This document shows, piece by piece, positions 22,432 through 40,719 of a DNA stretch of 41,458 bases. The stretch lies in contig JAHEIN010000008.1 of NCBI GenBank assembly GCA_024639335.1, positions 1 through 41,458 on the forward strand. Direction: 5' to 3'. Positions within the stretch are counted from its first letter, which is position 1. The number at the start of each line of letters is the position of its first letter. A program made the translations under genes and the position numbers. Origin of the DNA: a bacterium. GTDB lineage: Bacteria; Actinomycetota; Acidimicrobiia; Spongiisociales; ZC4RG35. Under the pieces are notes generated by a model, which had not been told where the DNA came from, ran no database searches, and worked only from the letters and a program-made list of their open reading frames with translations.

Positions 22432-23157
22432 GTGACTCAACGAGAAGACACCGCGCCCGCCGATGATCAGCCGACTCCGGCGCCGAGGCAACGCACGGGC
22501 ATGGACCGCATCGGCAGGATGATCCTGATCGGGTTGGGGATCGCTGCACTGGTGTTGATCGGCTCGCTCGCATACATCGCCGGAAGGGCAGCCGAGACCG
22601 TGGCGGATCTGGGAGATCAGACGGCCGTCATCACCGGAGAAGGCGAGTTCACACGGCTCGGGCCGGTCACCGCCCAATCGCTCAGGGAGCTCTCCGAGCT
22701 GACCACGGTCGAAATCCTCCAGTACACCACCATCGAGAAGGGCGAAGACCGCGGGTGGTTGAACTGGGCGGCAGGGGATCAGATCTCGATGTTCGTGGTG
22801 GCTTCGATCGGCGCGGGTGTGGACCTGGCAGAGGTGACCGACGACGACATCCTCGCCGACCCCGAGACCGGACAGGCGGTCGTCCGCCTCCCGGCCGCAG
22901 ACATCACCTACATCGCCCCTGACACGGAGGCGACCCACGTCTACAACCGCCGAACCGGCGTGTTCACGAAGGGCAACCCCGATCTCGAGCGCTCCGCCCG
23001 GCTCGCGGCGGAGGAGGTCCTGTTGGTCCAGGCGCTCGACTCCGGCCTGCTGGAGCGGGCCGAGACGAGGGCGGTCACCGTCCTCGAAAGCCTGATTCGC
23101 AGCCTCGGTTACACCGATGTCACGGTGGTCGTCGAAGCTGACACCGCCAAGCGCTAG
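22432..23157 (+). CDS. DUF4230 domain protein
   Basis: GTG start; single N-terminal TM; LTTVEILQYTTIEKG...VRLPAADITYIAPD typical of DUF4230. Confidence 0.7.
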   Translation: MTQREDTAPADDQPTPAPRQRTGMDRIGRMILIGLGIAALVLIGSLAYIAGRAAETVADLGDQTAVITGEGEFTRLGPVTAQSLRELSELTTVEILQYTTIEKGEDRGWLNWAAGDQISMFVVASIGAGVDLAEVTDDDILADPETGQAVVRLPAADITYIAPDTEATHVYNRRTGVFTKGNPDLERSARLAAEEVLLVQALDSGLLERAETRAVTVLESLIRSLGYTDVTVVVEADTAKR

Positions 23158-23159
23158 GC
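23100..23159. repeat. Period-7 repeat array upstream of the VWA/AAA operon (array spans 23159 to about 23200)
   Basis: CGACATC CGACATG CGACATG CGAGATG, then degenerate CGCACAG CGGAGTG. Confidence 0.75.
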
Positions 23160-23263
23160 GACATCCGACATGCGACATGCGAGATGCGCACAGCGGAGTG
23201 GGCAGAGCAGGTCGAACTCTACGAATCTCTCTGACTTGCGCCGGTGTGAGACAATGGACACTT

Positions 23264-25369
23264 ATGCGCGCCCGGAGCACAACCGTTCTGCGAGACATGT
23301 TGCCCTCCGATGCGGGCAACATCGAGGACGTCGTTGCGCGATATCAACGGGTCGCGCCGGCCGTGACTCGCTTCGCCCGGAGTCTGTCCGGCAACGACAA
23401 ACTGAGAGTTCGGCTCGGCGCCGAGTCCACGTCGTCGGACGACGAGGTCGTGTGCGATCCCAGGATCTTCCAGGCTGCCTACAACCGCAATGCACCGGTC
23501 ACTGCCGACGAGACCGCGCTCGCCTCTGCACTGCACGAAGTCGTCCACTTGATCTCCACAGATCTCGAAGAGGCGCGGGTGGTTCCGGATCATTGGCCGA
23601 TCAGGTCCGGCAGCGACGTCCCCACCGACCTGCCGGTGGACCTTCTGTCGGCGATCGAAGCGGTCGGCGGACCACTGGTGGAGTCCATGTTCTTCACTCT
23701 GGAGGACGCCCGTCAGGAGCGGGTCAGCCTCGACGTGTACCCCGGTGCACGATCGGTGCTCGCGGATCTCTATCGCGCCGGATTCACGGAGTCGATTCGC
23801 CAATCCGGGCCGCTCGCCCAGTTCGCGCTCGGTGTGTTTCTCCTGACCGGCGGCTACGCCGGACGCGACCGCCTCGAGCGGCGGCTGGACGGGCGAGCTG
23901 CCGTGGCGCTCGCCGAGGCCCAGGACGCGATCGACGAGACCATCGCCGCAACCGACCCCTGGGAGGTCGCCGAACAAGCCATCGTGCTCATCGAGATCGC
24001 CCGTGCGAACGGGCTGCTCACGAAGCTGAGCGAGCAACCGTCCAACGAGGAACGGAAAGCCCAGCAGCAGGTCGATGCCGACTCGATGGCCCAGGGCGTC
24101 GACCGGGTGCGGCTCAACTCGCCCATCGTCCGGGATGCGGAGAGCTACAACGAGGCCAAGCGAGCGGCTCAGGCGCGTGCCGGGCTGTCGGACCGCAAGG
24201 GGGCCTCCGAACTGGGTGGTGACGCCTCCACCGACCAACTGTTGAAGGTGTCGGAGGCACCCACCGTATTCCTGCCGACCGGTCAGGGCGGCAAGGTCGT
24301 TGTCACTCGCCCGCCGATGGCGTTCAATCGGTTCGCGAACGAAGGCCGAGAAGCCATCAACGACGCTGCCAGGAAGTGGGACGTGGCCCAGCGGGGCGTG
24401 TCCGGAGAGCTGTTCCCCCTGTTCGCGGCCAATCAGCGCCGGGGATTGCGGTCGGGCTACGACCAGGGCGATGTGTCGCCGCATTCGGCTCTGTTCATCG
24501 GAGCAGGCCTCTACACCCGCATGTACGAGCGGCGCGCCGCACGCACCCGACGCACATACGCGGTCTCTTTGCTGGTCGACGGCTCGGCGTCGATGCTGCA
24601 GCCCCGCACCGGTCAACGAGGCCTGAAATCGTCATGGGGCATGCCCAGTGCGTTGCTCGGCGCCTGGACGCTCGCCCGGTTGTGCGACGAGCTCCAGATC
24701 GACTTCGAGGTGGCGCTGTTCAACCGATCGTTCGCCGCATCCCCGACCGACACCGAGTGGTCCTACACCCGGACCCGGAGCCAGGCGACCGGCGGGCTCC
24801 GCCAGAGTCAGGGAAGCGCCGCCACCCGACTCACCACCACGGTGAACCATTACCTGGCCAAACCTTTCGATCGGCGCTGGCGTGAAGCGGAGGGGCTCAT
24901 GGCCGGGATGTTCTACGCCGCGGCGGAGCCGAGGTCGGCATCGACGGCAGCAAGACGCGATCCCCGCTCCGCCCCGCCGGTCTCGATGTTCGACAAGGCC
25001 TCCAACGTCGATGAGTTCAATCTGGTCGTGGCCGCCGAACGGATGGGGCGACTCGGCGCGAACGTTCGTGTGCTGGTCGTGCTCGCAGACGGCATGACCA
25101 GGGGCTCGCTGGAGGGACTTCAGGCCACGGTCGCAGACATCGAACGCAACGGGACGACCGTTTTGGGGATCGGCATCGGTGACGACACGGTGTGCTCTGC
25201 GTATGAGCGGAATCAGGTCGTCGAGAGTCCCGATGAGCTGACCCGAGCCATGGTCGACGGCGTGCGCTCTTCGCTTCGTCGATCGTTGGCCAAGAGCGGA
25301 ATGGAAACCTGGTGGCTTCGGAGCGCCCGACCCACCTCGAACATGTGGAAGGAAGCGGCGAATGCCTGA
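23264..25369 (+). CDS. VWA-domain protein with N-terminal zincin-like HEVVH motif
   Basis: ETALASALHEVVHLISTDLEEARV...FFTLEDARQERVS; C-terminal VWA MIDAS VSLLVDGSASM; overlaps the AAA gene by 8 bp. Confidence 0.8.
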   Translation: MRARSTTVLRDMLPSDAGNIEDVVARYQRVAPAVTRFARSLSGNDKLRVRLGAESTSSDDEVVCDPRIFQAAYNRNAPVTADETALASALHEVVHLISTDLEEARVVPDHWPIRSGSDVPTDLPVDLLSAIEAVGGPLVESMFFTLEDARQERVSLDVYPGARSVLADLYRAGFTESIRQSGPLAQFALGVFLLTGGYAGRDRLERRLDGRAAVALAEAQDAIDETIAATDPWEVAEQAIVLIEIARANGLLTKLSEQPSNEERKAQQQVDADSMAQGVDRVRLNSPIVRDAESYNEAKRAAQARAGLSDRKGASELGGDASTDQLLKVSEAPTVFLPTGQGGKVVVTRPPMAFNRFANEGREAINDAARKWDVAQRGVSGELFPLFAANQRRGLRSGYDQGDVSPHSALFIGAGLYTRMYERRAARTRRTYAVSLLVDGSASMLQPRTGQRGLKSSWGMPSALLGAWTLARLCDELQIDFEVALFNRSFAASPTDTEWSYTRTRSQATGGLRQSQGSAATRLTTTVNHYLAKPFDRRWREAEGLMAGMFYAAAEPRSASTAARRDPRSAPPVSMFDKASNVDEFNLVVAAERMGRLGANVRVLVVLADGMTRGSLEGLQATVADIERNGTTVLGIGIGDDTVCSAYERNQVVESPDELTRAMVDGVRSSLRRSLAKSGMETWWLRSARPTSNMWKEAANA

Positions 25370-26354
25370 AACGATGATCTTCGAAGACCCGAGCGGGGCA
25401 AGTCGTCCCATCGAGCTCGAGAAGTTCACGGTCGACTCCGGTCTGGGGGATGCCGAACAACGAATCGGCAAGATCCCGGTTCCCGACCCGAACTACGTCG
25501 ACCTGGGAGTGCTGTATCGCTTCGCACAGGTCGAAGAGGTGCGCCGACAGAATCCCGAAGGGTTCGTGCCTTTGCATCTGGCAGTGCGCGGCCACATGGG
25601 AACCGGCAAGGACCACGACATCGAGCAGTTCGCCGCTCGACTCGGACTCCCCTACTACCGGATCCCGCTCACCGGAGAGGTCCGGGATGTGACCCTCATC
25701 GGCTCGACGAAGCTCCACGGGGATGGTGCCGGCGGTACCGAATCGCGCTGGGAGGACGGCGACATCACACGAGCACTTCGAGGACCCAGCCTCATCAACC
25801 TCTCCGAGCTCAATGCCGCCGGCGCCGAGACGCTGTTCGCTCTTCACGGATTGCTCGACCGGTACTCCGCTCTCGACCTCCCGAACGGGGAGACCGTCGC
25901 GTTGCGTGAAGATGTCCGAGTGTTCGGCACGATGAACCCGACCGACCTGCGTGATTACGCCGGAACGCAGACGCTGAACAAGGCGTTTGCCGACCGCTGG
26001 GTGATCTGGGAGAAGAACTTCCCGGGTCTCGAGCAGGTCGAGGCGATGCTGCGGAGGAGGTATCCAAGGATGAATGACCCGTTCGTGGAGGCGATCGCCC
26101 GTCTCGGACTGGAAGTGAACGCCAGCTTCGAGTCGCTCGACGCCGGGACCAGGGTGGAGACACCATTGAGCCTGCGCAGCCTGCTGGACCGGATGCCCAC
26201 CGGCCTCATGATCCATGAGGACGCCGAAGACCCGCTCAGGCTGGCCTGGGAGGAATTCGTGCTCCCCCACGTCGACATCTACGACCGCGACCACTACGAG
26301 ACCGTCTGGAGCGCGGTGGTCCGCAAGGGACCCCCGGCACCGGCCTTCAGCTGA
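25362..26354 (+). CDS. CobS/MoxR-like AAA+ ATPase with atypical Walker motifs
   Basis: LAVRGHMGTGKDHDIEQFAARLGLPYYRIPLTGEV, LINLSELNAAGAETLFALHGLLD, VFGTMNPTDLRDYAGTQTLNKAFADRW. Confidence 0.85.
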   Translation: MPETMIFEDPSGASRPIELEKFTVDSGLGDAEQRIGKIPVPDPNYVDLGVLYRFAQVEEVRRQNPEGFVPLHLAVRGHMGTGKDHDIEQFAARLGLPYYRIPLTGEVRDVTLIGSTKLHGDGAGGTESRWEDGDITRALRGPSLINLSELNAAGAETLFALHGLLDRYSALDLPNGETVALREDVRVFGTMNPTDLRDYAGTQTLNKAFADRWVIWEKNFPGLEQVEAMLRRRYPRMNDPFVEAIARLGLEVNASFESLDAGTRVETPLSLRSLLDRMPTGLMIHEDAEDPLRLAWEEFVLPHVDIYDRDHYETVWSAVVRKGPPAPAFS

Positions 26355-26452: not shown

Positions 26453-26479
26453 GGCGCAGAGCGGATGGCGCAGAGCGCC
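26453..26479. repeat. GGCGCAGAGCG direct repeat, 14-nt spacing, ending in hairpin GGCGC-AGA-GCGCC
   Basis: GGCGCAGAGCG at 26453 and 26467. Confidence 0.7.
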
Positions 26480-26487
26480 AAGGGCCA

Positions 26488-26493
26488 TACACT
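26488..26493 (+). promoter_or_regulatory. Leaderless -10 candidate TACACT-N7-ATG
   Basis: Upstream of the LOG-family gene. Confidence 0.5.
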
Positions 26494-26500
26494 CCTGCCA

Positions 26501-27583
26501 ATGGCCTATGACACGGGGAATCCCGAACTCGATGCGACGATCGCCGAACTCGTGGCGACCGCCTCGACCAACGGCAACGCCGACCTCATCTCCGAGATGA
26601 TCACCACGGCGCTCAAGCTGCACCGGGACGGCGCACCGCGTGGCGACCTCAAGTTGGTCAACACGGCACTCAAGGAGATGCGGTACTCGATGCTCGTCTT
26701 CAGTCGGCACACCGAACCGAAGGTCACGATGTTCGGTTCGGCCCGGCTCACTCCCGACAACCCCGAATACCAACTGGCAGAGCGTTTCGCCAAGATCATG
26801 GCGGATCGTGGCTGGGGCGTGATCACCGGCGCCGGCCCCGGGATCATGGAAGCGGGAAACCGCGGCGCCGGTCCGGAGAACTCCTATGGCGTGAACATCC
26901 GCCTTCCATTCGAGGAGTCTGCCAACGGGTTCGTCGATCCCGATCGGGTGGTCAACTTCAAGTACTTCTTCACCCGGAAGCTGGGTTTCGTCAAGGAGTC
27001 CCACGCCTTCACCCTGTTCCCCGGAGGATTCGGAACGCTGGATGAGAGCTTCGAGCTGCTCACGTTGATCCAAACCGGCAAGAGCGACCTGCATCCCATC
27101 GTCCTGCTCGAGACCGAAGGCTCCGGCTACTGGCAGCCGGTGGTCGACTTCTGTCGGAATGTGCTGATCGAACAGGGCCTCATCGGCCCCGAGGACCTCA
27201 ACCTCTTCCAGAGGGTCCATGATCCGGAAGAAGCCGCCGACGTGATCTGCCGTTTCTATGCCAACTATCAGAGCCAGCGCTACGTCAACGGCCGGCTGGT
27301 GCTCCGACTCCTCGAGGCTCCGGACACCGACACCCTGGCACAGCTCAACCGGGCGTACGTCGACATCATGACCAACGGCGAGATGGAGGTCATCGAACCC
27401 ACTCCAGCAGAGGTCCGCGACGAGGACTCGTTGGAATTCGCTCGCGTTGCGTTGTGGTTCGACCGGAGGCATTTCGGTCGCCTTCGCATGCTGATCGACG
27501 ACCTCAACGCCATCGTCGAGGAGCGCACATCGGTCCATCCACCGTCGCCGTTCGCCGAGGAGCAGGCCGACCGCAGCTGGTGA
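26501..27583 (+). CDS. LOG-family (TIGR00730-like) Rossmann-fold protein
   Basis: VITGAGPGIMEAGNRGA and FTLFPGGFGTLDESFELLTLIQTGK (PGGxGTxxE motif). Confidence 0.9.
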   Translation: MAYDTGNPELDATIAELVATASTNGNADLISEMITTALKLHRDGAPRGDLKLVNTALKEMRYSMLVFSRHTEPKVTMFGSARLTPDNPEYQLAERFAKIMADRGWGVITGAGPGIMEAGNRGAGPENSYGVNIRLPFEESANGFVDPDRVVNFKYFFTRKLGFVKESHAFTLFPGGFGTLDESFELLTLIQTGKSDLHPIVLLETEGSGYWQPVVDFCRNVLIEQGLIGPEDLNLFQRVHDPEEAADVICRFYANYQSQRYVNGRLVLRLLEAPDTDTLAQLNRAYVDIMTNGEMEVIEPTPAEVRDEDSLEFARVALWFDRRHFGRLRMLIDDLNAIVEERTSVHPPSPFAEEQADRSW

Positions 27584-30893: not shown

Positions 30894-31013
30894 TCAGCCG
30901 ATGAGGTAGGCGCCGAGCAGCTCGTGTGGTAGTTCGACGACGATCGTCCCGCCTTCGATCCTGATTGCGACCTCGACTGTCTGGCCGGCGAGCGCGGTCT
31001 CATGTGTTGGCAT
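30894..31013 (-). CDS. Possible 39-aa small ORF
   Basis: MPTHETALAGQTVEVAIRIEGGTIVVELPHELLGAYLIG*, below the ORF-track cutoff; the frame can extend to ATG at 31052 or 31058. Confidence 0.3.
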   Translation of the reverse strand: MPTHETALAGQTVEVAIRIEGGTIVVELPHELLGAYLIG

Positions 31014-31156
31014 GTTCTCTCCATGCCTCCCCGACCGCCTGCCCAACACCATACGCATCGAATCTGAGATTGGAAGCGGAACGTTCGGACGGCCGGCGCT
31101 TCATCCCCTCCATCTCCGAGCGGGTGCGACCACTGCAGTTTGTCCGAGTGATCAGA

Positions 31157-31162
31157 TACGCT
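31157..31162 (+). promoter_or_regulatory. Leaderless -10 candidate TACGCT-N6-ATG
   Basis: Upstream of lhr; supports the start at 31169. Confidence 0.5.
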
Positions 31163-31168
31163 CGCACC

Positions 31169-34100
31169 ATGTTGCCGTCACAGTTCATGCCGGCCACGAA
31201 AGCGTGGTTCGAGGCGTCCTTTCCCGCGCCGACCGACGCTCAGGCGCAGGGATGGCAATCCATCTCATCAGGGAACCACACTCTGATCCACGCTCCGACC
31301 GGATCGGGCAAGACACTCGCAGCGTTTCTCTGGACGATCGACCGACTGCTTCACGAGCCGCTCCCGGAGGATCTCGAACGCACCCGCGTCCTGTATGTGT
31401 CACCGATGAAGGCGCTGGCGTATGACATCGACCGCAATCTGCGCGCTCCACTGCTCGGTATCCGGCACGCTTCCGAGCGAATCGGCGGCGACTCCCTCCC
31501 GGAGATCACCACGTTCCTGAGGACCGGGGACACACCCGCGGTCGACCGGCGGCGAATGCAGAAGCATCCGTCGGACATCCTCATCACGACCCCGGAGTCC
31601 CTCTACCTGCTGCTCACGTCACAGGCCCGAGAGACCCTGCGCTCGGTGCGCCATGTGATCTGCGACGAGGTGCATGCCGTTGCAGGCACCAAACGGGGCG
31701 CGCATCTCGCCCTGAGCCTGGAACGGCTGGAGGAACTCACGAGCGTCGAGCCTCAGCGGATCGGCCTTTCGGCCACGCAGCGCCCACTGGAGACGATCGC
31801 GGGCTTCCTGGGCGGCGGGACCATCGAAGGCGACACCTGGACCCCGCGTCCGGTCACGATCGTCGACACTCCCGGCGAACGCGCAATCGATCTCGAGCTG
31901 GTCGTGCCCGTCGAGAACATGGCTGAGCCCGATGAGCCCGATCCGCTCGATCCGGATCGGATCCGCACCAAGTCGATCTGGCCGGCCGTGTACCCGCGGG
32001 TGCTGGACCTGATCGAACACCACAACTCGACCATCGTCTTCGCCAACTCCAGGCGGCTGGCCGAACGGGTGTGCAACGAGCTCAACCACCTGGCGGGTGA
32101 GGAGATCGCCCGCGCCCATCACGGATCGGTGGCACGCGACCAGCGAATCGAGATCGAAGAGGCACTCAAACGCGGGGCACTGAAGGCCGTCGTGGCGACC
32201 AGCTCGCTGGAGTTGGGAATCGACATGGGTGCGGTGGACCTGGTGATCCAGATCGAGGCTCCGATCTCTGTGGCGAGCGGGCTCCAGCGGGTTGGCCGGG
32301 CCGGGCACTCGGTGGGTGAGGTCTCGACTGCGAAGCTGTTCCCCAAATATCGGGGCGACCTCCTGCTTGCGACCGTCCTGGTCGATCGAATGCTGGAACG
32401 CCAGGTCGAGCAGACGAAGATCCCCCGCAATCCGATCGACGTGCTCAGTCAACAGCTGGTGGCATCGGTCGTGATCGAAGATCGGACCGTCGACGACCTC
32501 TTCGACATGACGCGCCGCGCCACGCCTTATCGCGAGCTCTCCCGGTCGGTGTTCGACGCCACGATGGACATGCTCGCCGGCCGCTATCCGTCGGATCTGT
32601 TCTCCGAGCTCCGGCCACGGGTCGTCTGGGATCGGATCGACGGCTCGGTCACGGCGCGTCGCGGTGCTCGTCAACTCGCGGTCGCCAACGCCGGGACAAT
32701 CCCTGATCGCGGCCTGTACCGGGTGGTACTGCCGGAGGGTGGCCGGGTAGGCGAGCTGGACGAGGAAATGGTCTATGAGTCCAGGGTGGGGGACCTGTTC
32801 ATCCTGGGCTCTTCGACGTGGCGAATCGTCGATATCGGGCCGGACATCGTCCAGGTGGTCCCTGCACCCGGAGAGCCCGCAGCCACGATGCCGTTCTGGC
32901 ACGGCGATGCCGTGGGACGCTCCCTCGACACCGGCAAGGCCGTCGGCGCCTTCGTCAGAGAAATCGGGGCGATGACGCCGGAGTCGTCAGAGCGCCGGCT
33001 CATCGAGGAATACCACCTCGACGAGCTGGCTGCGAGAAACCTCATTGCGTATCTCGAGGAGGAGCGAGCAGAGGGCGGGGTCCTCCCGACGGATCAGACT
33101 CTGGTTGTGCAGCGGTTCCGCGATGAGATCGGCGACTGGCGGGTGGTGATTCTCTCCCCGCTCGGTGCCAAGGTCCATGCCCCGTGGGCCATGGCGACCA
33201 CTCAACGGTTGCGTGAGCGGTACGGCACCGATGTCGACGTGATCTGGTCCGACGACGGGATTGCCTTCCGGTTTCCCGACACCGACGACATCCCAGCGAC
33301 CGAAGAGCTCATCCCAGAGCCCGAGGAACTCGAACCGCTCCTCACCGAACACTTGGCGGATTCGGCGATGTTCGCAGCCCGATTCCGGGAAGCCGCAGGC
33401 CGAGCGCTGCTTCTCCCCCGCCGCCGCCCCGGACAGCGGACACCACTCTGGCTCCAGCGGAGAAAGGCCGCCGATCTGCTGAGCGTCGCTCGCCAGTTCG
33501 GGTCGTTCCCGATCATCCTGGAAACCTATCGAGAGATCCTCCAAGACGACTTCGACGTCCCGTCGTTGCGGGAGGTCCTCGCCGACATCAGGTCCCGCCG
33601 GATCCGGGTGGCCGAGATCTCCACCGAGAGCCCCACACCATTCGCATCGTCGCTCCTCTTCGCGTTCGTCGCTGCGTACCTGTACGAGGGCGACACCCCG
33701 CTGGCCGAGCGGCGAGCCGCCGCGCTCACGCTCGACCGAGAGATGCTTCGCGAGCTCCTGGGCGAAGGGGAGCTGCGCGACCTCCTCGATGCAGACCAAC
33801 TGGCCACGCTCGAATTGGAGCTGCAGAGGCTCACCGAGGGGCGGCAGGCGAATGGCGCCGACGGCATCGCCGATCTGTTGGCATTCCTCGGTCCGCTCAG
33901 CACCGACGACATCGAGCTTCGGACCTACGACACCGACGTCGTCGCCGCCTTGGCCGAGTTGACCAGCTCGCGGAGGGTCATCGAGGTGACCATGAAGGGC
34001 GAACGCCGATACGCCGCGGTCGAGGATGCCGGACGGCTCCGTGATGCGCTCGGCATCCAGCCTCCTCCCGGCATCGCCCATGTGTTCCTCGAACCCGTCG

Positions 34101-35542
34101 ACGACCCGTTGGGCGATGTGATCGGTCGCTACGCCCGCACCCATGGCCCCTTCACGACCGAAGCAGCGGCAGGCTCGCTGGGATTGCCGGTCGGCGTCGT
34201 GTCCACGGCGCTCCGACGCCTCGACGAACAGCGCCGTGTGGTGCAGGGCGCGTTCCGCCCCGGCGGGTCCGACCTCGAATGGATCGACTCCGACGTGCTC
34301 CGGACTCTCAAACGACGGTCCCTCAGCGCATTGCGCTCCGAGATCGAGCCCGTCACCGGGGACGCGCTCGGCCGTTTCCTCCCGGTATGGCAAGGTGTTT
34401 CGAATGATCCTCCAACCGGTCGCGGGCCGATGCTGGAGGTCGTGCGACGGCTCCAGGGAGCAGATCTGCCGGCTTCGGTATTGATCAACGACGTGCTCCC
34501 CTCCCGTCATGCGGACGCCGAGACCGTGCTCGATCAATTGATGATCGAGGGAGAACTGGTATGGGCAGGACGGGGCACGCTCGGCGCACGGGACGGCAAG
34601 CTCGCCCTGTACTTCCGGGATCAGCTCCCACTGCTCTGGGTGCCCCCGGTCGGAGACCCACTCGACGATGAGCTTCATCAGGCGATTCGCAACCACCTCG
34701 AAAAACGCGGCGCCAGCTTCTTCAAAGCGATCTACCTGGCGTGCGGCGGTGGCGATGTCGCCGCCGTGCTCGACGCCCTCTGGGATCTGGTGTGGGCCGG
34801 TGAGATCACCAACGACACCTTCGCCCCTGTCCGCGCATTCGGGCTGGCCCGTCGTACGAAGTCATCAGGGCGGCCGACGGTGACTGCGGCCTTCCCGGCC
34901 CATGCCTCGGGCCGCTGGTCGCTCGTGACTGATCTCCTCGAGGATGTCATCGAGCCGCCGTCCGGTACCCAGCAGGCGACGGCATGGACCCACCAGCTGC
35001 TCGATCGTCACGGGATCGTCACGCGCCTGAGCGTCGCCGCAGAAGGACTCCCTGGCGGGTTCACCTCGGTGTATCCGGTACTCCAGCATCTCGAGGAGAC
35101 CGGCAGGGCGCGCCGCGGCTACTTCATCGAGCGCTTGGGCGGTGCACAGTTCGCGCTGCCCGGAGCCGTCGACCGCGTGCGAAGCGCTCCCGAGCACTCG
35201 GTCACCATCCTGGCATCGACCGATCCGGCGAACCCGTACGGTGCGGCGCTCGACTGGCCCGCGATCGAGGACGGTCGGATCGGCCGCATCGCCGGAACGT
35301 ATGTCATCCTCGCCGACGGTCACCTGGTCTGCTATCTCGACAGACGAAAGCTGCGGACCTTCGCGCTCGACCCCGACCACTACACGATGGTTGCCTCGGC
35401 GATCGCCTGGCTCGGAGACCGATCCCGTCGCCTTCGAATCGAGTCGATCGACGGCCAACCACCAGCACAGACCGAGCTGGGGCGAGTGCTCGCCGAGGTC
35501 GGATTTGCGCCGGCGCTGCGCGGCCTGTCGTATCGCTCCTGA
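31169..35542 (+). CDS. lhr: Lhr-family large ATP-dependent helicase
   Basis: HAPTGSGKTLAAFL, ICDEVHAVAGTKRGAHLALSLERL, LELGIDMGAVDLVIQ...RVGRAGHS; about 1457 aa from ATG at 31169. Confidence 0.93.
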   Translation: MLPSQFMPATKAWFEASFPAPTDAQAQGWQSISSGNHTLIHAPTGSGKTLAAFLWTIDRLLHEPLPEDLERTRVLYVSPMKALAYDIDRNLRAPLLGIRHASERIGGDSLPEITTFLRTGDTPAVDRRRMQKHPSDILITTPESLYLLLTSQARETLRSVRHVICDEVHAVAGTKRGAHLALSLERLEELTSVEPQRIGLSATQRPLETIAGFLGGGTIEGDTWTPRPVTIVDTPGERAIDLELVVPVENMAEPDEPDPLDPDRIRTKSIWPAVYPRVLDLIEHHNSTIVFANSRRLAERVCNELNHLAGEEIARAHHGSVARDQRIEIEEALKRGALKAVVATSSLELGIDMGAVDLVIQIEAPISVASGLQRVGRAGHSVGEVSTAKLFPKYRGDLLLATVLVDRMLERQVEQTKIPRNPIDVLSQQLVASVVIEDRTVDDLFDMTRRATPYRELSRSVFDATMDMLAGRYPSDLFSELRPRVVWDRIDGSVTARRGARQLAVANAGTIPDRGLYRVVLPEGGRVGELDEEMVYESRVGDLFILGSSTWRIVDIGPDIVQVVPAPGEPAATMPFWHGDAVGRSLDTGKAVGAFVREIGAMTPESSERRLIEEYHLDELAARNLIAYLEEERAEGGVLPTDQTLVVQRFRDEIGDWRVVILSPLGAKVHAPWAMATTQRLRERYGTDVDVIWSDDGIAFRFPDTDDIPATEELIPEPEELEPLLTEHLADSAMFAARFREAAGRALLLPRRRPGQRTPLWLQRRKAADLLSVARQFGSFPIILETYREILQDDFDVPSLREVLADIRSRRIRVAEISTESPTPFASSLLFAFVAAYLYEGDTPLAERRAAALTLDREMLRELLGEGELRDLLDADQLATLELELQRLTEGRQANGADGIADLLAFLGPLSTDDIELRTYDTDVVAALAELTSSRRVIEVTMKGERRYAAVEDAGRLRDALGIQPPPGIAHVFLEPVDDPLGDVIGRYARTHGPFTTEAAAGSLGLPVGVVSTALRRLDEQRRVVQGAFRPGGSDLEWIDSDVLRTLKRRSLSALRSEIEPVTGDALGRFLPVWQGVSNDPPTGRGPMLEVVRRLQGADLPASVLINDVLPSRHADAETVLDQLMIEGELVWAGRGTLGARDGKLALYFRDQLPLLWVPPVGDPLDDELHQAIRNHLEKRGASFFKAIYLACGGGDVAAVLDALWDLVWAGEITNDTFAPVRAFGLARRTKSSGRPTVTAAFPAHASGRWSLVTDLLEDVIEPPSGTQQATAWTHQLLDRHGIVTRLSVAAEGLPGGFTSVYPVLQHLEETGRARRGYFIERLGGAQFALPGAVDRVRSAPEHSVTILASTDPANPYGAALDWPAIEDGRIGRIAGTYVILADGHLVCYLDRRKLRTFALDPDHYTMVASAIAWLGDRSRRLRIESIDGQPPAQTELGRVLAEVGFAPALRGLSYRS

Positions 35543-37702: not shown

Positions 37703-39586
37703 TCACTCCGAGACGAGCGGGAGCGTCCGCTTGGTTGGCCGTCGTGGCTCGGCGCGCTGATAGAGCGTGGTTCGCTCGTAAGGTGTCCGGCCGACCCGTC
37801 CGATCGCCCGTTCGAAATCGTCCGGGCTGACTTCCTGGCCGTGAGACGCACCTGCCGACCGTGTGATGATCTCACCCATCAGCGTTCCTCCCAGGTCGTT
37901 GCAGCCGGCATCGAGCAGCCTGGCTCCGCCATCGAGTCCGAGCTTGACCCAACTCGCCTGGATGTTGTCGATGAGCCCGTCGAAGGCGAGTCTCGCCACC
38001 GCATGGATCAACACGACCTCATCCCATGTGGGGCCCGGCCTCGACCGTCCACGCAGGAAGATCGGCGAGCCCATGTGCACGAACGGCAGCGGCACGAACT
38101 CGGTGAATCCCCCCGTGCGCTGCTGGATCTGCCGGACCACTTCGTAGTGGTTGGCCCACGACCGGGGACCGTCGATGTGGCCGAACATGACCGTTGCCGT
38201 GGCCCTGAGCCCGAGCTCGTGGGCGGTGATCATCACATCGGCCCACTGGGCCGTTCGGATCTTGTCGGGACAGAGGTGCTCCCGGACCCGGTCATCGAGA
38301 ATCTCAGCGGCGGTACCCGGCAACGTTCCGAGGCCTGCCTCGGCGAGCCGTTCGAGAAAGTCTCGAACCGGGATGCCGAGCGTCTCGGCGCCCTGCCACA
38401 CCTCGAGCGGGGTGAAACCATGGATGTGCATCCCAGGCAGGCGCTTCTTGATCCCCTCGACCACACCGACGTAGAAATCACCGGTGAACTCGGGGTGGAT
38501 GCCTCCCTGGAGCGTCACCTCCGTGGCGCCTCGCTGCCAGGCCTCTTCGGCGCGATCGACGACTTCGTCGATGCCCATCAAGTAGGGGTCGCCGCGCAGG
38601 TTCAGACTGCGCGGCCCTTTCGAGAATGCACAGAACCCGCACCGGAAATAGCACATGTTCGTGTAGTTGATGTTCCTGTTGACCACATAGGAGACTTCGT
38701 CGCCATTGGTGCGGCGCCGCAACATGTCCGCTGTCCAGCCGATCGCATCGATCTGGTCTCCCCTGGCTCTGAACAGCGCCTCGAGCTCGTGGCGTGAGGG
38801 TGGCATGCCGGCGAGGGATCGTTCCAGGATCGGCCGCAGATCGCCGGACCCTTCGAGTTGCTCCGGTCCCGAGCCCCCGACCCAGCCCTGATCGCTCCAC
38901 TCCGCCGACAGCCGGCGCTGCGGCACCGGCGGCTCTTCGTCCATGCCCGGCGCCCAGCCGTACCGTGGGCGCGCCGCTCCCGAACCGTCGACCTGACGCA
39001 ACCATGCCGTGAACTGAACGGCGTCGAGCTCCGACCGAACCTCGTCGAGATCCACTCCGATCGGAAGCACAGACCGTTCGACGAGTCTCGTGCCTCCGAG
39101 GGCGTCTCGCAGCTCGCCCAGGCGCTCGGAGTCCCAGTCGCGCAAGACGAGGTCGCCGGCTCCGGCTGCGACGGCAGCGAGCCCCTGCGAAACGTCGTCC
39201 ACGAAGACCGAGATGGTGATGTCGAGTCCGGGGCGAGACATCCTCTGGGCGGCTGCGGCCACACCCGAGCGCGTGGTGCGCAAGAACGCGGCTCGAGTCC
39301 GCACGACCGCATCCATGGTCATGTCCTCGTTGTCCGAATGGACGATCGTCAGCCGCCAGCCGGGAACCTCCCCCAACGCGAGCGCGGCGTCGGGCTCGAG
39401 CACCCATCCGGTGGCGGGCGACTGCGGATTGGATGCAAGGGTCAGCAACCCGGCCGACGCCGCTCGTTCGACCTCCGAGGCATCGGTGGAGCCCACTTCG
39501 AGGGCGGTGGTGCATTCCTTGACTCTGGACTCCACGATCGCATCGGTGATGCGATCGGCAGGTCGAAGTCGGATGAACGTGATCAC
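37703..39586 (-). CDS. cofH: FO synthase subunit 2 (CofH-like radical SAM) with ~245-aa N-terminal extension
   Basis: VVNRNINYTNMCYFRCGFCAFSKGPRSLNLRGDPYL; GTG start overlapping the cofG stop by 4 bp. Confidence 0.88.
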   Translation of the reverse strand: MITFIRLRPADRITDAIVESRVKECTTALEVGSTDASEVERAASAGLLTLASNPQSPATGWVLEPDAALALGEVPGWRLTIVHSDNEDMTMDAVVRTRAAFLRTTRSGVAAAAQRMSRPGLDITISVFVDDVSQGLAAVAAGAGDLVLRDWDSERLGELRDALGGTRLVERSVLPIGVDLDEVRSELDAVQFTAWLRQVDGSGAARPRYGWAPGMDEEPPVPQRRLSAEWSDQGWVGGSGPEQLEGSGDLRPILERSLAGMPPSRHELEALFRARGDQIDAIGWTADMLRRRTNGDEVSYVVNRNINYTNMCYFRCGFCAFSKGPRSLNLRGDPYLMGIDEVVDRAEEAWQRGATEVTLQGGIHPEFTGDFYVGVVEGIKKRLPGMHIHGFTPLEVWQGAETLGIPVRDFLERLAEAGLGTLPGTAAEILDDRVREHLCPDKIRTAQWADVMITAHELGLRATATVMFGHIDGPRSWANHYEVVRQIQQRTGGFTEFVPLPFVHMGSPIFLRGRSRPGPTWDEVVLIHAVARLAFDGLIDNIQASWVKLGLDGGARLLDAGCNDLGGTLMGEIITRSAGASHGQEVSPDDFERAIGRVGRTPYERTTLYQRAEPRRPTKRTLPLVSE

Positions 39587-40719
39587 GGAGAAGCCTCCAT
39601 TTGAGGTGCGAGGGCGAAGCCCCGGTCGTCGGTGGCCGCTGCGACCTTGTCCACGAGACCGCGATCGATCCACGAGTCGTCGATGTATTCGGGGTACACG
39701 GGCAGTCGCGGCTTCAGGTCGAAACCGGCTGAGTTGGTCCGCGAGGTCAGTTCGTCGAGATGCGGCCAGGGAGCTTCGGGGTTGACCCAGTCGATCGTGA
39801 GTGGAGAGACCCCTCCCCAGTCGTTGATGCCGGCATCGAGATAGGTCTCGAAACGTTCGGTGAGGTTCGGCGGGACCTGGAGGTTGACCTCGGCACCCAA
39901 CAACCACCGGGCAACGGCCACCACCCGGGCGAACCACGCCGGGATCGGCTCGGCGTTGCCCCGCATCCGCGTGTCGGCCTTGGCACGGAAGTTCTGGATG
40001 ATCACTTCTTGGATGTGCCCGTAGCGGGCGTGCACCTCGCCAATGGCGAGAATCGAATCGACGATCTCCTCGTTGGTCTCGCCCAGACCGACGAGGATCC
40101 CGGTCGTGAAAGGAATGCGGAGCCGTCCAGCAGTCTCGATCGCCTCCATTCGGACCCCAGGGTCCTTGTCAGGGCACTCGTGGTGTGGCATTCCCGGTTC
40201 CATCAGTCGAGGCGAGATGTTCTCGAGCATCATCCCCATCGACACGTTCGAGGAGCGGAGCGCCGTCATCTCGTCTGCGGTCATCACCCCGGGATTGGCA
40301 TGAGGGAAGAGATCGGTCTCGGCGTTGACGAGCTCGGACATCTCCTCGACGTAGCCGATGGTCGTCGTATGGCCATGAGCGGCCAGGAACTCCCTCGCCT
40401 GACGCCATCGAGCCTCAGGCCGGTCGCCCAGCGTGAACAACGCCTCGGTGCATCTGTGAGCGTCACCGGCCCGAGCCACCGCAAGCACTTCGCCGGGCTC
40501 GAGGTACATACCGCCTGCTCCCGGCGGTTTGGCGAAGGTGCAATACGTGCAGGTGTCCCGGCACAGCGTGGTCAGTGGGATGAAGACCTTCCGGCTGTAC
40601 GTGACGACACGGCCATGACCTTCGTCTCTGAGGCGGGCCGCCTCACCGAGCAGAGCCGCCGTGTCGACGGCACCATCGAGGTAGGCCACCGCAAGCTCAC
40701 GATCGGGTGCAGGATGCAT
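39583..40719 (-). CDS. cofG: FO synthase subunit 1 (CofG-like radical SAM)
   Basis: YSRKVFIPLTTLCRDTCTYCTFAKPPG (CxxxCxxC), SPLTIDWVNPEAPWPHL. Confidence 0.92.
   Translation of the reverse strand: MHPAPDRELAVAYLDGAVDTAALLGEAARLRDEGHGRVVTYSRKVFIPLTTLCRDTCTYCTFAKPPGAGGMYLEPGEVLAVARAGDAHRCTEALFTLGDRPEARWRQAREFLAAHGHTTTIGYVEEMSELVNAETDLFPHANPGVMTADEMTALRSSNVSMGMMLENISPRLMEPGMPHHECPDKDPGVRMEAIETAGRLRIPFTTGILVGLGETNEEIVDSILAIGEVHARYGHIQEVIIQNFRAKADTRMRGNAEPIPAWFARVVAVARWLLGAEVNLQVPPNLTERFETYLDAGINDWGGVSPLTIDWVNPEAPWPHLDELTSRTNSAGFDLKPRLPVYPEYIDDSWIDRGLVDKVAAATDDRGFALAPQMEASP

Follow-up and report, generated by a model that had tools for sequence, protein, structure and literature searches.

Several AAA+ ATPases work together with a protein carrying a VWA domain. 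NorQ/NorD, CbbQ/CbbO and midasin (Rea1/MDN1) combine an AAA+ core with a VWA domain, and in NorQD, CbbQO and CobST the targets are remodelled or metallated without proteolysis (PMC13036017, PMC9976466). In NorQD, the VWA domain inserts a finger into the pore of the AAA+ ring and is rotated against the N-domain as ATP is turned over; the MIDAS has been suggested to touch the target (PMC13036017, PMC9976466). Related genes are widely carried by phages as "cobST", for which there are two competing readings. In jumbo phages of group 2.2, a MoxR ATPase adjoins a protein in which an N-terminal metallopeptidase is fused to a vWA domain, and a role of this metallopeptidase-chaperone in virion assembly was proposed (Iyer et al., 2021, PMC7824862). 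By the other reading, viral cobST encodes a B12 chelatase, the peptidase annotation is mistaken, and the host CobN is hypothetically hijacked (PMC8651126).

The window analyzed here, 41,458 nucleotides of a contig from a bacterium of the class Acidimicrobiia (JAHEIN010000008.1), carries a gene pair with the same architecture as the jumbo-phage pair, but it is cellular and not linked to virions. The features of the pair and its downstream neighbors are as follows:

23264–25369 (+): 701-aa VWA protein with a zincin-like N-terminal domain, a helical linker and a C-terminal CobT/NorD-type VWA domain (ORF, AlphaFold2, hhalign)
23534–23548 (+): HEVVH (HExxH), residues 91–95, on predicted helix 81–98; invariant in 30/30 sequences
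23699–23719 (+): LEDARQE, residues 146–152, candidate third metal ligand, on predicted helix 127–155; E152 invariant
24551–25282 (+): VWA domain with MIDAS residues D439-S441-S443 and D609 (Foldseek, CobT_C match, CobT alignment)
25362–25369 (+): overlap of both genes, 8 bp
25362–26354 (+): AAA+ ATPase, 330 aa, CobS/NorQ/midasin (MoxR) type (AAA_5, PDB profiles, hhalign)
25590–25613 (+): Walker A GHMGTGKD, residues 77–84, with Asp84 at the usual Ser/Thr position
25797–25814 (+): Walker B NLSELN, residues 146–151, with Ser148 at the usual Asp position and the catalytic Glu149 retained
26465–27583 (+): LOG/TIGR00730
27633–28364 (+): DinB-like TIGR03084
28361–29146 (+): BtpA

The open reading frame of the VWA gene spans positions 23117–25369 (+), with a possible start at the ATG at 23264, which is backed by the alignment of homologs. 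The ATPase and VWA genes were adjacent in every locus in which both were readable, and the overlap of exactly 8 bp, found in 39 of 49 homologous loci, suggests translational coupling. The initial annotation, which had described a protein of about 701 aa with HEVVH followed by LEDARQER, a C-terminal VWA domain with an intact MIDAS (DGSAS) and an 8-bp overlap with an atypical CobS-like ATPase gene, was correct in all of these points, although it did not name the altered residues of the ATPase.

LEDARQER occupies residues 146–153 and DGSAS (DxSxS) residues 439–443, while the second Asp of the MIDAS is present as D609-G610. The residues H91, E92, H95, E152, D439, S441, S443, D609 and G610 did not vary in an alignment of 30 sequences with identities down to 28%. 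Therefore, the HExxH motif, E152 and the MIDAS are not chance matches. In family f12, E147 is changed to I and D148 to H, which makes the third metal ligand harder to assign and counts against the reading preferred below. The loci L037–L040 (family f3) carry an acidic, variable insertion of about 35–50 aa directly after the HExxH helix.

The AlphaFold2 model of the VWA protein had a mean pLDDT of 81 and placed HEVVH and E152 on helices. The top Foldseek matches in the PDB were the MDN1 MIDAS domain and the NorD VWA domain, and the matches in BFVD were full-length phage VWA/CobT proteins. A putative N-terminal metallopeptidase-like domain would fit the helical position of HEVVH and the profile comparison described below, but the top 50 Foldseek matches of the full-length model were VWA-domain matches throughout and contained no zincin, a point against it. 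Consequently, the putative zincin fold is read from the motifs and the relatives. By analogy with NorD, the stretch of about residues 490–600 probably includes a pore-inserting finger. Among the Pfam models, only sub-threshold matches to CobT_C, VWA and VWA_CoxE were obtained, with CobT_C reached by 16 of the 30 members; two members also reached SprT-like, at an E-value of only about 0.1. A generic Pfam assignment was rejected on these grounds. The comparison with DUF2201 proteins made in the initial annotation had to be dropped as well: the idea of a metallopeptidase-like N-terminus joined to a VWA-like C-terminus is alike, but no DUF2201 model matched any of the 30 members at E ≤ 1.

Every member of the VWA family was tied to phage CobT-like families by the PHROG profiles. 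An hhalign comparison with a phage CobT/peptidase set gave a probability of 99.4 and an E-value of 3.5e-21 for the whole protein and 93.6 and 2.2e-7 for the N-domain, and the ATPase matched a phage CobS-like set with an E-value of 4.7e-38. This link was visible with profiles only. A tblastn search with the VWA protein (P0001) found no match in phages and only 25% matches to an Acinetobacter phage-plasmid CobT in plasmids, and no close relative of the pair was found in the initial scans of viral contigs. The motifs recur in the relatives. The gene upstream of the cyanophage "cobS", annotated as a peptidase, encodes HEVGH...TEDARIE and a VWA MIDAS; the VWA proteins of Gordonia phage Gray and Brevibacterium phage Cantare contain HELCH...LEDQRIE; and the plasmid proteins of Paenibacillus and Aromatoleum contain HESQH...VEDGRIE and HEAAH...FEDIRIE, respectively, both followed by (Y/F)PG as in the present VWA protein. 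Homology to the phage and plasmid "CobS + CobT/peptidase" pairs extends over all or most of the length of both proteins. Since many of these relatives also have HExxH...EDxRxE, this kind of pair, which the initial annotation had called uncharacterized, is already known (PMC7824862, PMC8651126), with its function in dispute. The present pair differs from the cyanophage, Gordonia, Brevibacterium, pSC2 and Aromatoleum pairs in being chromosomal, clade-wide and single-copy, and in its Walker residues.

In a NorQD-like chaperone for metal insertion or complex maturation, the HExxH/E site would hold or deliver a metal, or be structural, and nothing would be cut, as in the non-proteolytic systems named above. 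An N-domain of this type can indeed work without a protease site, since the one true CobT that was checked, from Cereibacter, lacks HExxH and the CobT of known structure aligns only weakly, with VEQARVE as the counterpart of EDARQE, in addition to aligning at the NVDE...DG segment. However, HExxH with its catalytic-type Glu92 persists to 28% identity and is shared by many of the phage and plasmid relatives, whereas a merely structural site would allow changes at E92. We therefore regard this purely non-proteolytic reading as rather unlikely, and because E92 never varies, cutting by the N-domain is slightly favored over the holding of a metal or client.

The ATPase matched the Pfam model AAA_5 with an E-value of 2.1e-12, and its profile matches in the PDB were midasin, CobS, NorQ and CbbQ, the first three being closest to its AAA+ core. 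A moderately confident fold model (pLDDT 75) matched NorQ, CbbQ and Rea1, of which NorQ and CbbQ were the closest. Against the CobS model TIGR01650, the protein scored 46 bits, far below the cut-off of 558.55, and among 22 genomes the scores ranged from 41 to 68 bits, with none above the cut-off.

The resemblance to the CobS model and to CobT_C, in the ATPase, the VWA segment and the ExxRxE-type motif of the N-domain, would fit true subunits of the aerobic cobaltochelatase inserting cobalt for B12, and the proposed hijacking of host CobN by viral CobST would lend this some plausibility. The low CobS scores and the HExxH motif, which is missing from the Cereibacter CobT, point the other way, as does CobN itself, which was absent from 42 of the 43 pair-positive genomes in a search whose controls worked. 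The sole match came from a genome of the same family (G129). No CobN/ChlH-type gene adjoins the pair, as the initial annotation had stated, and CobN was also missing from the whole genome assembly. The B12 chelatase was therefore rejected, and within the clade of this organism such a function is strongly disfavored and highly improbable.

The canonical patterns GxxGxGK[S/T] and hhhhDE are not matched by this ATPase. In 136 of 137 loci, Walker A reads GKD instead of GKS/T and Walker B NLSE instead of DE, and neither motif was matched at the remaining locus, probably L022, where the sequence stops short of the ATPase gene. The same D and S replacements were found in 30/30 sequences of the ATPase alignment, and alignment to midasin fixed both altered positions unambiguously. 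Judged from these residues, the two Mg2+-ligand positions look swapped. The D/S pair was absent from 13 other AAA_5-type matches in the same genome and from all 20 phage, plasmid and actinobacterial relatives compared (with the Walker A of Aromatoleum unreadable), which have T, S or N at the Walker A position and D, N or E at the Walker B position. An exact DNA-pattern search for GHMGTGKDHD matched seven of 397 genomes of the phylum, all within the order of the source organism, and gave no match in viral contigs. The exchange is new here and is the most unusual feature of the pair; a literature search on swapped Walker residues found no paper, which is a weak negative.

In the ATPase tree, the family formed one clade with a support of 100 on a long stem, and its weakly supported sister (64) consisted of proteins from a Paenibacillus plasmid and from a gut phage, which share GKN in Walker A and DE in Walker B. 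Since these weakly neighboring relatives carry GKN, the Walker A site may have evolved from T via N to D. GKN was seen in the gut phage contig (L145, 3436–6037), in Paenibacillus polymyxa plasmid pSC2 (L219, 3074–6897) and in Staphylococcus phage S25-4 (L191), and Asn replaces the Walker B Asp in the CobS-like ATPases of the Gordonia (L187, 3399–4628, INEVN) and Brevibacterium (L189, 3324–4346, LNEIN) phages. The Walker A Ser/Thr position thus seems to be freely replaced in the wider AAA+ group. Such cases show that this group tolerates odd Walker residues; against this background the exchange stands out less, but none of them yields it. A distant CobS-like ATPase with GKT in Walker A and LEELN in Walker B was observed in family f85 of the same phylum (L147, 6997–9925; also L141 and L142), accompanied by a VWA gene that runs in the opposite direction and lacks HExxH. 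By eye, this cluster looks corrinoid methyltransferase-like (MtaA/B/C-like, RamA-like activator, CobW-like), which suggests that the client of that pair may be a corrinoid protein.

Replacement of the Walker A Ser/Thr and the Walker B Asp in every member would also be expected of a pseudo-ATPase, a nucleotide-binding scaffold that has lost both Mg2+ ligands and binds ATP without hydrolysis. This appears unlikely, since K83, E149, N192 (sensor 1 position) and R212 (arginine-finger position) are all invariant, the replacements leave the site with a carboxylate and a hydroxyl, and relatives with GKN, or with NE or EE in Walker B, occur. Because one carboxylate and one hydroxyl are kept near the Mg2+, a working ATPase whose ligands have traded roles is favored over a dead one.

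The VWA protein was found in 130 of 138 genomes of the order, and the eight misses were draft assemblies, most of them less than 90% complete. It was also present in 38 genomes of family f12 (assemblies of 0.6–1.1 Mb, 33–36% GC), which is probably Actinomarina with its tiny genomes of about 1 Mb, and in none of the other listed families of the class. The best 80 matches of a contig scan with the ATPase alignment were Acidimicrobiia-type MAGs, a few of them labelled Acidobacteria. With phage and plasmid genes as the closest relatives and a virion-assembly role proposed for the jumbo-phage version (PMC7824862), the pair might be a domesticated or resident phage module for virion maturation or defense rather than a housekeeping machine. 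Its presence in nearly all genomes of the order, at a conserved chromosomal site beside dapB, its retention in genomes of about 1 Mb and the absence of its signature from viral contigs make this quite improbable. Neither protein had a PADLOC match, and a defense system was rejected.

The initial annotation had raised the question of a conserved third gene, and three candidates were found on the same strand downstream: among the 74 loci with room, LOG was present in 59, TIGR03084 in 68 and BtpA in 54. TIGR03084 and BtpA likewise follow the pair in family f12, and dapB lies divergently upstream both in the order and in f12. Of 24 genomes with the pair, 23 contained BtpA, compared with 0 of 22 genomes of the class that lack the pair. 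Since the positives may form one clade, this co-occurrence is an association and no proof of function. LOG, TIGR03084 and BtpA are linked neighbors conserved downstream, and candidate parts at most. The BtpA gene belongs to the BtpA/SgcQ family, and the window has no evident photosynthesis genes. Farther downstream, the window contains a large Lhr-type helicase (30965–35542) and two adjoining radical-SAM genes (37703–40719, −), one with a CofH C-terminal region, for which an F420 or menaquinone pathway is possible.

Three known clients or partners, CobN, RuBisCO and the Mo-hydroxylase, do not account for this distribution. RuBisCO was absent from 23 of 24 genomes, and a role as RuBisCO activase was thus rejected for a universal client. 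The Mo-hydroxylase was present in 16/16 genomes of the order but in 0/8 of f12, and CODH/Mo-hydroxylase maturation was likewise rejected. As CobN, RuBisCO and the Mo-hydroxylase are missing from 42/43 genomes, 23/24 genomes and the tiny genomes, respectively, none of them is the shared client. NorQ/NorD, CbbQ/CbbO and midasin also differ from the pair in their N-terminal domain, their canonical Walker residues and their client. The proposal of a VWA-zincin and MoxR/CobS pair with a chaperone or chelatase-like role was well supported by the conserved HExxH and the poor fit of these three clients, but as the pair has precedents and DUF2201 gave no match, the interpretation in the initial annotation holds in part.

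Our preferred reading, to which we assign a probability of roughly 0.6, is a chromosomal, vertically inherited CobST-like machine, in which a hexameric MoxR/CobS-type AAA+ motor works with a VWA co-chaperone bearing a zincin-like HExxH/EDxRxE N-terminus, by a NorQD-like mechanism, on a client common to the clade. The AAA+ ring would grip the VWA domain through the finger in its pore, and ATP hydrolysis would turn or pull this domain as in NorQD. The MIDAS would grip the client, and the N-terminal domain, putatively binding Zn, would act on it by limited proteolysis or by retaining it while it matures. The client would be a protein found throughout the clade, including the genomes of about 1 Mb, and no CobN-dependent cobalt insertion would be involved. 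ATP is probably still hydrolyzed, the P-loop Asp84 and the Walker B Ser148 having traded the usual Ser/Thr and Asp roles at the Mg2+. A point against this reading is that the swap might weaken or abolish hydrolysis.

A bolder form of this reading, which we hold only tentatively, is an ATP-driven zincin-VWA processing machine that is essential or nearly so throughout the clade, even in some of the smallest genomes of free-living bacteria, with a functional exchange of the P-loop Ser/Thr and the Walker B Asp, and that may be the cellular key to the true role of the phage "CobS/CobT" pairs. The retention of the pair in genomes of about 1 Mb implies a client central to the clade, for which BtpA, TIGR03084 and LOG are the first candidates. 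If the exchanged Walker residues support hydrolysis, a textbook rule for P-loop ATPases would be broken. For the clade examined here, a cellular pair that keeps HExxH while CobN is missing fits the metallopeptidase-chaperone reading better, without deciding between the two for phages. As this chromosomal pair without CobN demonstrates, not every pair of this type has to be a cobalt chelatase, and it gives the two readings a test case in cells.
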